A DNA stretch of 64,000 nucleotides from Paraconexibacter algicola (GTDB lineage Bacteria > Actinomycetota > Thermoleophilia > Solirubrobacterales > Solirubrobacteraceae): contig NZ_PYYB01000002.1 in the NCBI RefSeq assembly GCF_003044185.1, forward strand, positions 186,001 through 250,000. The letters run 5' to 3'. The notes beneath the pieces were generated by a model. That model had not been told where the DNA came from, searched no databases, and was given only the letters and a program-made list of their open reading frames with translations. The translations under genes were made by a program, and so were the position numbers. Numbering within the stretch: position 1 is the first letter of the stretch; every line of letters starts with the position of its first letter. This document shows positions 20,295 to 22,431 of this stretch, piece after piece.

Positions 20295-21899
20295 ATGACC
20301 GCTCCCCCGTCCCCCGGGCTGACCCGTCGGCGGCTGCTCGTCGCCGGCGGCGCCGCGCTCGCCGGTTCCGGCGCATTCCCGCTCACGTCCGTGGCGGCGC
20401 GGGCGCGACGGAGCCCGCTCGCGCGCGCCGGGCGGTTCGGGAGCGGGGTCGCGGCCGGCCTGCCGACCGAGCGCGGTGCGCTGCTGTGGACGCGGCTGGA
20501 CGAGCTCGGCGAGCGGACCGCCCCGGGCCGCGAGCGGCTGCGCTGGGAGGTCGCCGACGACCCGGGCTTCGGCCGCGTCCTCCTCGACGGCGTGGTCGAC
20601 GCGTCGTCGCTGCGCGACGGCACCGCGCGCGTGCAGGTCGCCTCCCCGCGGCTGGAGCCCGGCCGCCCGTACTGGTACCGCTTCGCGACCCGCACGACGA
20701 GCTCCCGGATCGGACGGTTCACGACGCTGCGCCCCGCCGACAGCGCCGAGCCGGTCCGGATCGCGTTCTTCTCCTGCCAGCGCTACGAGCACGGCTGGTT
20801 CACGCCGCAGGCGCTGCTGGCCCGCGACGACGTCGACCTCGTGGTGTCACTGGGCGACTACCTCTACGAGGAGGACGCGACCCCGATCTCCCCCGAGCGC
20901 CGCGACACCTCCGGGCTGCCCAACGGGCACGTCGAGACGCTCGCGCAGTTCCGGGCCCGGCACCGGACCTACCGGTCGGACGAGCGGCTGCAGGACATGC
21001 ACGCCGCGCACGCGGTCGTGTCGATCTGGGACGACTGCGAGGTCGAGGGCAACTGGGCCGGCGAGGGCCCGTCCTCCGGGCCCTCGCCCGTCGGGGAGCG
21101 GGCCGTCCCCTTCGCGGAGAAGCGGCGCAACGGGATCCTCGCCTACTTCGAGTGGATGCCGGTCCCGCGCCCGCGCGGCGTCGACCGCTTCAAGGTCTAC
21201 CGCTCGCTGCGCCTGGGCCGGCACGCCGAGCTGTTCCTGCTCGACACCCGGCAGTACCGGGACCCGCAGCCGTGCGGCGACGTGAGCTTCGACTCCGGAC
21301 CGCCGTGCGCCACCGTCGACGCACCGCGCAAGCGCCTCGGCGACGCCCAGAAGGCGTGGCTGAAGGACCGCGTCCCCGCCTCGGACGCGACCTGGAAGGT
21401 CCTCGGCAACGCGCAGATGATGATGGCGCTCGACGTCGCGCCCGGGCTGCCCTCCCAGGTCGACGACTGGGCGGGCTACGGCGCCGAGCGCCGCGAGGTC
21501 CTCGAGCACTTCCGCGCACGCGGCGTGCGCAACCTCACGAGCATCGTCGGGGACGTGCACAGCTACTTCGCCGGCGACCTGCACACCACGGGCCGGGTCG
21601 ACGGGCGGCGCGTCGGGACGGAGTTCGTCGGCGCGTCGGTGAGCCACCGGTCGCTGACGCTGCCCGGGCTGAGCAAGGAGCAGTCCGACCTGATCACGGG
21701 CAACCTCACGCTGACCAACCCGCACCTGCGCTTCGCCGACTTCCGCCGTCACGGCTACGCGGTCCTCGAGGCCCGCGCCCAGGAGCTGCGCGTCGATTTC
21801 AAGGGCGTCTCGACGGTCCGGTCCCCGGCGGCGGACCCCGTCGCGGTCGCGTCCTTCCGCGTCGCCGACGGCCGCCCGGTGGTCGAGCGCACCGCCTGA
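20295..21899 (+). CDS. phoD: PhoD-family alkaline phosphatase/phosphodiesterase, Tat-exported
   Basis: The 534-residue protein begins with a twin-arginine signal (TRRRLLVAGGAALAGSGAF), so it is exported folded. A PhoD N-terminal beta domain (GVAAGLPTERGALLWTRL ... RPYWYRF) is followed by the metallophosphatase domain: FFSCQRYEHGW with the metal-binding Cys of PhoD, SLGDYLYEE (Asp and Tyr ligands), LLDTRQYRD, LGNAQMMMA and IVGDVHSYF with the late Asp and His ligands. Such enzymes release phosphate from esters using iron and calcium. Upstream PHO-box-like repeats suggest phosphate-starvation control. Start ATG fits the Tat signal and lies seven bases after AAGCAT. Confidence 0.92.
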   Translation: MTAPPSPGLTRRRLLVAGGAALAGSGAFPLTSVAARARRSPLARAGRFGSGVAAGLPTERGALLWTRLDELGERTAPGRERLRWEVADDPGFGRVLLDGVVDASSLRDGTARVQVASPRLEPGRPYWYRFATRTTSSRIGRFTTLRPADSAEPVRIAFFSCQRYEHGWFTPQALLARDDVDLVVSLGDYLYEEDATPISPERRDTSGLPNGHVETLAQFRARHRTYRSDERLQDMHAAHAVVSIWDDCEVEGNWAGEGPSSGPSPVGERAVPFAEKRRNGILAYFEWMPVPRPRGVDRFKVYRSLRLGRHAELFLLDTRQYRDPQPCGDVSFDSGPPCATVDAPRKRLGDAQKAWLKDRVPASDATWKVLGNAQMMMALDVAPGLPSQVDDWAGYGAERREVLEHFRARGVRNLTSIVGDVHSYFAGDLHTTGRVDGRRVGTEFVGASVSHRSLTLPGLSKEQSDLITGNLTLTNPHLRFADFRRHGYAVLEARAQELRVDFKGVSTVRSPAADPVAVASFRVADGRPVVERTA

Positions 21900-21917
21900 C
21901 GCCGTCCGCCCTCGATG

Positions 21918-21931
21918 CGAACATGTGTTCG
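21918..21931 (+). promoter_or_regulatory. LexA/SOS box over the nuclease promoter
   Basis: CGAACATGTGTTCG matches the Gram-positive and mycobacterial LexA operator pattern CGAAC-N4-GTTCG exactly. Its GAACAT part (21919-21924) also fits a -10 element six bases before the GTG at 21931, so bound LexA would block polymerase directly. Confidence 0.65.
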
Positions 21932-22431
21932 TGCATTCGGGAGACAAGGGCGCCGTCGCCGAGCTGCGGATCGCCGCCGAGGCCACGCGGCTCGGCGTGG
22001 TCGTCTCCCGGCCGCTCTCCGACGGCCGCCGCTACGACCTCGTCTTCGACGTCGCGCACCGGCTCTACCGCGTGCAGTGCAAGTGGGGCCGCCTGTGCGG
22101 GGACGTGATCGTGGTCCGGACGGGCACGTGCCGGCACTCCCCCACGCGCGGCTACGTGCGCACGACCTACGACGCGTCGGAGCTCGAGCTGTTCGCGGTC
22201 TACTGCGGAGCGCTCGATCGCGTCCTGCTCGTCCCGGTCGCCGAGGCGGGCGGCCACCACGAGCTCCGCCTGCGGATCGCACCCGCAAAGAACAACCAGC
22301 GCGTCGGTGTTAGGATGGCGGAGCAGTACGACCTGCCCGGGGCTATAGCTCAGCTGGAAGAGCGCGTGACTGGCAGTCACGAGGTCGGCGGTTCGAGCCC
22401 GCCTAGCTCCACTCGCACGAAGGCCGCCTGA
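21931..22431 (+). CDS. PD-(D/E)XK endonuclease-like protein whose frame continues through tRNA-Ala
   Basis: The 166-residue frame has a nuclease-like core resembling group I intron-associated PD-(D/E)XK endonucleases: GDKGAVAELRIAAEA (E11), a beta hairpin with RYDLVFD (D36), and YRVQCKWGR (Q49-x-K51). The region to about residue 138 looks like the real domain. From residue 137 onward the frame reads across the tRNA-Ala gene, giving the familiar tRNA-derived string AIAQLEERV...GGSSPPSS, and stops after it. GTG at 21931 is chosen because it lies at the end of a LexA box and six bases from GAACAT; a GTG at 21925 lies inside the box. No integrase is nearby. Function (DNA cleavage or repair) is inferred. 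Confidence 0.75.
   Translation: MHSGDKGAVAELRIAAEATRLGVVVSRPLSDGRRYDLVFDVAHRLYRVQCKWGRLCGDVIVVRTGTCRHSPTRGYVRTTYDASELELFAVYCGALDRVLLVPVAEAGGHHELRLRIAPAKNNQRVGVRMAEQYDLPGAIAQLEERVTGSHEVGGSSPPSSTRTKAA
22339..22411 (+). tRNA. tRNA-Ala (anticodon GGC)
   Basis: The 73 bases fold as a full cloverleaf: acceptor GGGGCTA/TAGCTCC with the G3-U70 wobble pair that identifies alanine tRNAs, D arm GCTC/GAGC, anticodon arm CGTGA-CTGGCAG-TCACG with anticodon GGC, variable AGGTC, and T arm GGCGG-TTCGAGC-CCGCC, discriminator A73. The 3' CCA is not encoded. A -10-like TAGGAT at 22311-22316 is inside the nuclease frame and could drive the tRNA alone. A 12-bp terminator hairpin follows six bases later. Confidence 0.97.

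Follow-up and report, generated by a model that had tools for sequence, protein, structure and literature searches.

Why should a nuclease gene carry an SOS box at its start and a transfer RNA (tRNA) gene at its end? The question is raised by a short locus of the actinobacterium Paraconexibacter algicola (class Thermoleophilia; contig NZ_PYYB01000002.1, positions 186,001 to 250,000; this whole 64,000-nucleotide stretch was analysed and is called the window, and its numbering is used below). The original prediction had placed a LexA operator on the promoter of a PD-(D/E)XK nuclease next to a tRNA, and had suggested repair, homing or element mobility as the function. The comparative evidence favors homing or mobility, whereas repair is without support here. 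We consider it likely, reasoning from sequence, that the gene encodes a DNA-damage-induced, free-standing homing endonuclease that would be aimed at the DNA of a tRNA anticodon arm and linked to a resistant allele of that tRNA. The features of the locus are as follows.

21904..21908, + strand: GTCCG element, located where PafBC-type damage promoters have their -26 element
21918..21931, + strand: very probable LexA (SOS) operator CGAACATGTGTTCG, exact pattern
21931..22431, + strand: PDDEXK_5 nuclease open reading frame (ORF), start GTG at 21931 or 21925, stop at 22429-22431
21934-22335, + strand: nuclease catalytic domain, Pfam profile match
22311..22316, + strand: TAGGAT, probable -10 element of the tRNA gene, in codons of the conserved nuclease C-terminus
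22339-22412, + strand: tRNA-Ala(GGC), the genome's single GGC-pattern match
22365..22381, + strand: anticodon arm CGTGACTGGCAGTCACG, a variant form of the proposed target region

The gene encodes an I-Ssp6803I-type endonuclease

Judged by sequence and modeled fold, the gene is a free-standing endonuclease of the I-Ssp6803I type. The predicted PD-(D/E)XK nuclease was recovered as a match to the Pfam family PDDEXK_5 (PF11645; E 4e-28, 98.5 bits against a cut-off of 26.1), and the sole solved relative found by sequence was I-Ssp6803I itself (PDB 2OST, E 5e-6). An AlphaFold model of the protein (predicted local distance difference test score, 90.8), searched with Foldseek, matched 2OST with an E of 2.7e-10; no other fold match fell below an E of 0.001, and the next entry stood at 2e-3. 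Residues E13, D38, Q51 and K53 are invariant across 28 family sequences. The D, Q and K align with those of 2OST, and the position of the E is a Q in the 2OST chain. Rfam reported only tRNAs, and no group I intron, in the window and 20 nuclease loci, and we therefore do not regard the nuclease as intron-encoded; an intron lying within the tRNA was rejected on the same result.

Family members sit beside tRNA genes

The neighboring tRNA noted originally is the tRNA-Ala(GGC) listed above, and the nuclease lies immediately 5' of this single-copy gene. The domain match stops 3 nucleotides 5' of the tRNA, and the reading frame stays open through the entire tRNA gene.

We surveyed 150 genomes of the class and then 396 more genomes of the phylum. 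The family is patchy, being present in 33 of the 150 class genomes. With a single exception, the 49 class matches examined stand beside a tRNA. Across class and phylum, 67 of 75 matches fall within 250 base pairs (bp) of a tRNA gene, when about 2% would be expected by a chance estimate that assumes 60 tRNAs per 3 Mb; most of the exceptions match the profile only weakly or in part. The P. algicola genome has three PDDEXK_5 genes, each of them at a tRNA: Ala(GGC), Arg(CCG) and Tyr(GTA). A contig search with the single window protein gave no match and an alignment of 23 sequences was too diverse, but one of five sequences yielded 33 loci in named genomes, including Svornostia abyssi J379 and metagenome-assembled Solirubrobacteraceae, Thermoleophilaceae and Gaiellaceae. 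Of these 33, 31 abut tRNA-Ala(GGC); at the other two no tRNA is seen, and both are close to a contig end. As a fact of sequence, the tRNA linkage is close to certain.

The tRNA type goes with the clade of the nuclease: on the nuclease tree, nine changes of tRNA type account for nine types, compared with at least 23 in shuffles. Pairs of nucleases at Arg(CCG) and at Arg(TCT) kept their tRNA while side and strand changed; the tRNA itself, not a fixed neighborhood, is thus the constant, which points to the tRNA as the target. In other actinobacterial families, members of one clade (L130, L131, L132) are found some 450 bp downstream of tRNA-Pro(GGG).

Anticodon arms differ between occupied and empty loci

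Among the tRNA-Ala(GGC) genes of the class sample, the arms common in genomes without the nuclease (empty genomes) include CTTGCATGGCATGCAAG and TCTGGCTGGCAGCCAGA. Such common arms are carried by 31 of 45 empty but only 4 of 33 occupied genes (p 6e-7; 2e-5 after deduplication by genus). Within genera, occupied-empty pairs of tRNAs differ at 6.8 of the 17 arm positions and empty-empty pairs at 2.5, while in the first 26 nucleotides the corresponding values are 0.7 and 0.4. The genus-level p is 0.005 for the arm and 0.36 for the rest, in a count that covers the first 26 positions and the 17 arm positions and leaves out the T arm. Because the arm varies strongly with the nuclease while the first 26 nucleotides barely change, we place the presumed cleavage target in the anticodon arm.

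Occupied and empty alleles occur within genera

The order leuS, tRNA-Ala, rsfS is found without a nuclease in two genomes (G145 and G023), and the empty tRNA gene accompanies leuS in other genomes too. Both states, occupied and empty, occur within genera g4, g13 and g14 (own family) and within genera g30, g35, g41, g44, g49 and g68 (family f7). Several nuclease copies are truncated, split between frames or interrupted by stop codons, as a homing cycle predicts, with draft assemblies perhaps adding some; one remnant (L078) retains just the C-terminal part, beside its tRNA. On the other side of the nuclease, the window has phoD at 20295-21899, between a DivIVA-like gene and the nuclease, unlike genomes G053 and G196, where the nuclease directly follows the DivIVA-like gene.

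The tRNA promoter is probably embedded in the nuclease ORF

A TANNNT hexamer is present 21-29 nucleotides upstream of the tRNA in 11 of 11 abutting Ala loci, within codons of the conserved C-terminal motif of the nuclease. It is missing from all 10 nucleases that share this motif without being followed by a tRNA on the same strand (Fisher 3e-6), and a comparable hexamer is found upstream of the tRNA in most empty loci. We infer that this hexamer serves as the -10 element of the tRNA promoter. Svornostia abyssi J379 (L186) has the arrangement of the window, with TAAGAT as its embedded hexamer. At several loci, the ORF stops at the conserved TAG of tRNA positions 8-10 (offset -9). This arrangement accounts for the tRNA-derived peptide sequence at the ends of such PD-(D/E)XK endonuclease ORFs.

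The SOS box very probably belongs to a LexA regulon

The pattern CGAACN4GTTCG occurs once without mismatch in the window, as CGAACATGTGTTCG at 21918-21931 on the + strand, the perfect fit that had been claimed. The whole genome (4.74 Mb, 6 contigs) contains 17 exact sites, compared with two for the reversed control pattern. We assigned regulon genes locus by locus from the sequence around exact sites, as listed here.

C3:366436, own genome: lexA, with an exact upstream box
C3:355579: DnaE-type polymerase (PHP and DNA_pol3_alpha domains), with an upstream box
C1:2199637: DinB (IMS domains), with an upstream box
C1:2353711: radical-SAM protein, with an upstream box

The original prediction had proposed looking for the same box at recA, lexA and dnaE2, a different box at recA or lexA being taken to speak against it. 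This check came out in favor of the prediction: lexA and dnaE2 share the box, as does dinB, and the 5' region of recA has a near-match, CGAACACGTGTTtc, with two mismatches, so that a perfect box is to be rejected for recA. The box recurs in the lexA promoter of 17 further genomes of the class, exactly in 16 and with a single mismatch in one. The final G of CGAACATGTGTTCG is, as predicted, the first base of a GTG codon, that at 21931, which is also the case at dinB and dnaE. Within the box there is another in-frame GTG, at 21925. Because of the 17 to 2 excess in the genome, the boxes at lexA, dnaE2 and dinB, the near-match at recA and the lexA boxes across the class, CGAACATGTGTTCG is very probably a real LexA operator, and as a fact of sequence the presence of a LexA-type box is close to certain. 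Nuclease genes of the same order often have an exact or one-mismatch box; most of those in family f7 have none.

Some exact sites of the genome look like chance occurrences (for example L002, within a coding stretch) and were left unassigned. Two similar small ORFs of 105 and 114 amino acids, without Pfam matches, have exact SOS boxes (G000:C1:2467381, L006; C4:155699, L015), and one of them neighbors the second PDDEXK_5 gene of the genome.

The promoter spacing resembles that of PafBC-type damage promoters

The GTCCG element of the window stands where other promoters have the CCG of the pattern CCG-N10-TANNNT, which was found at 25 of 49 class nuclease loci and at three or fewer for any other spacing except N14, whose peak arises because the first CCG of CCGTCCG is also counted. 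The CCG element is common to the nuclease and lexA promoters of the class. Damage promoters have been assigned the consensus tTGTCRgtg-N8-TannnT (PMC5656591), and at promoters of this type PafBC uses a -26 motif together with the housekeeping polymerase (PMC11804915). The spacing of the nuclease promoter matches this consensus (PMC5656591); it differs in that the -26 element is CCGTCCG and that the hexamer at the -10 position in the window is GAACAT, not TAnnnT, and thus a poor -10. The original prediction had called GAACAT -10-like, which holds for its spacing, at which relatives have TAGTGT or TAGCGT within the box, but less for the hexamer itself, which is weak. Control of the nuclease promoter by PafBC would fit this likeness, and the genome encodes a candidate regulator.

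G000:C1:1505000-1517000 (L184:5634-7685), - strand: fused PafB-PafC-type WYL regulator

Nuclease promoters of family f7 (L046, L047, L050, L051) have other palindromes around the -10, GTTCTC-N6-GAGAAC and CGTTTCC-N6-GGAAACG, which are perhaps sites of another repressor.

A second nuclease family shows a similar pattern at tRNA-Asn

The same genome has a further SOS-box gene that runs into a tRNA.

G000:C4:51379-51948 (L014, L034, L162): helix-turn-helix (HTH)-HNH ORF with an exact SOS box, CGAACTAGTGTTCG, abutting and overlapping tRNA-Asn(GTT); HTH by Pfam, HNH by reading of the sequence

The arrangement at tRNA-Asn recurs at 13 loci of the class. The common ATTCG stem of tRNA-Asn is found in 9 of 12 empty but 1 of 8 occupied genomes of the family (p 0.02), and at three loci (L167, L169, L170) partial copies of the tRNA-Asn 5' end, about 15 nucleotides long, directly precede the intact tRNA; these may be traces left where the tRNA was cut and repaired. 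Since the HNH nuclease is unrelated to the PDDEXK_5 family, the shared pattern speaks for a general process.

A proposed homing gene linked to a resistant tRNA, and the alternatives

In the mechanism that we propose, DNA damage would lead to cleavage of LexA, and the nuclease would be made while RecA recombination is active. It would then cut the anticodon-arm DNA of element-free tRNA-Ala(GGC) alleles on DNA exchanged with other cells, and repair from the occupied allele would copy the nuclease together with the adjacent altered, putatively resistant tRNA. With its 3' end supplying the -10 box of the tRNA and extending into it, the ORF would keep the essential tRNA expressed after insertion and the pair tightly linked. 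A broader statement, to which we give about even odds, is that of a tRNA-gene drive: two unrelated families in Actinomycetota (PDDEXK_5 and HNH) may spread as damage-induced homing genes that cut tRNA anticodon arms, each accompanied by a tRNA allele that is immune to it and that can have its promoter within the nuclease ORF. The conflict may then cause anticodon stems in essential single-copy tRNAs to evolve much more rapidly than the other parts of these molecules.

Several observations weigh against this interpretation. The window's own arm, CGTGACTGGCAGTCACG, is also found in the empty genome G145, and occupied genomes G053, G092 and G141 carry arms common among empty ones, as does G100, where a stop codon interrupts the nuclease; the strict rule that an occupied locus has a non-canonical arm was rejected on these exceptions. 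The strictest within-family permutation of the arm contrast gives only p 0.02. Beyond the order of P. algicola, a LexA box is missing from the majority of nuclease genes, even though it is present at lexA in those genomes, and the tRNA-Tyr copy of the P. algicola genome has no box; a box on every nuclease of the family was accordingly rejected as false outside the order. Finally, many loci come from draft or metagenome-assembled genomes.

The alternatives differ in which of these patterns they explain. A domesticated, damage-induced defence nuclease that cleaves the tRNA genes of invading phages or plasmids, with the resident tRNA protected by its arm, would account for the predicted damage control, the altered arm of the resident tRNA and the conserved catalytic residues, yet the patchy distribution (33/150 genomes), degraded copies and empty alleles at the same locus fit a homing cycle better and no defence genes were seen among the identified neighbors; we regard it as unlikely. 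Slightly less credible still is an old, vertically inherited gene kept beside the tRNA for the promoter in its 3' end and now a decaying passenger: the embedded -10 motif, C-terminal-only remnants next to a tRNA (L078) and the conserved tRNA-Ala clade are all in keeping with it, but several tRNA types, sides and orientations, both states within genera, and invariant catalytic residues alongside a hypervariable arm would be unexpected.

Two further readings appear very improbable. tRNA genes are common attachment sites, as is generally known, and the locus might be debris of an integrase-type element; against this, the nuclease is on the 5' side of the tRNA, no integrase was recognized among the neighbors, and the element was rejected when no repeat of the tRNA 3' end was found near the locus. 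Equally, a single exact palindrome could arise by chance, as the two control matches in the genome illustrate, but chance would hardly place the box at lexA, dnaE and dinB and at an equal position in many orthologous nuclease genes.

Comparison with known systems

A free-standing homing endonuclease near tRNAs is of a kind already known from SegB of T-even phages, a GIY-YIG enzyme associated with tRNAs of many isotypes, none of them preferred (PMC13096335). Like SegB, the nuclease described here is free-standing and co-located with tRNA genes; SegB cuts within tRNA genes and favors inheritance of the tRNA region, and we suppose a comparable action here. SegB differs in being a phage enzyme of another superfamily, with no isotype preference and no SOS control described (PMC13096335). 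The chromosomal, damage-wired, promoter-embedding form appears to be undescribed: a search of open-access literature, in which most subscription papers are absent, gave no earlier account of it. If our interpretation is true, free-standing homing endonucleases target cellular tRNA genes in bacterial chromosomes, selfish genes of this kind can become part of the host damage response, and nuclease conflict, not decoding alone, can drive the evolution of anticodon stems.

The operator CGAACN4GTTCG is the same as in the LexA/SOS regulon of Gram-positive bacteria, with the difference that the gene predicted to be controlled here is a putative homing nuclease. Free-standing HNH homing endonucleases find their likeness in the SOS-box HTH-HNH gene at tRNA-Asn, which differs from them in being chromosomal and tRNA-linked. 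The closest parallel to the PDDEXK_5 gene is I-Ssp6803I, a PD-(D/E)XK homing endonuclease of the group I intron in tRNA-fMet of Synechocystis, which shares its family (PF11645), fold, catalytic D/Q/K and, if our placement of the target is right, a tRNA gene target in the anticodon region. In place of an intron, however, we find an ORF that abuts and overlaps an intact tRNA, in a family that uses several tRNA types, is predicted to be LexA-controlled and is linked to a tRNA with a variant arm.
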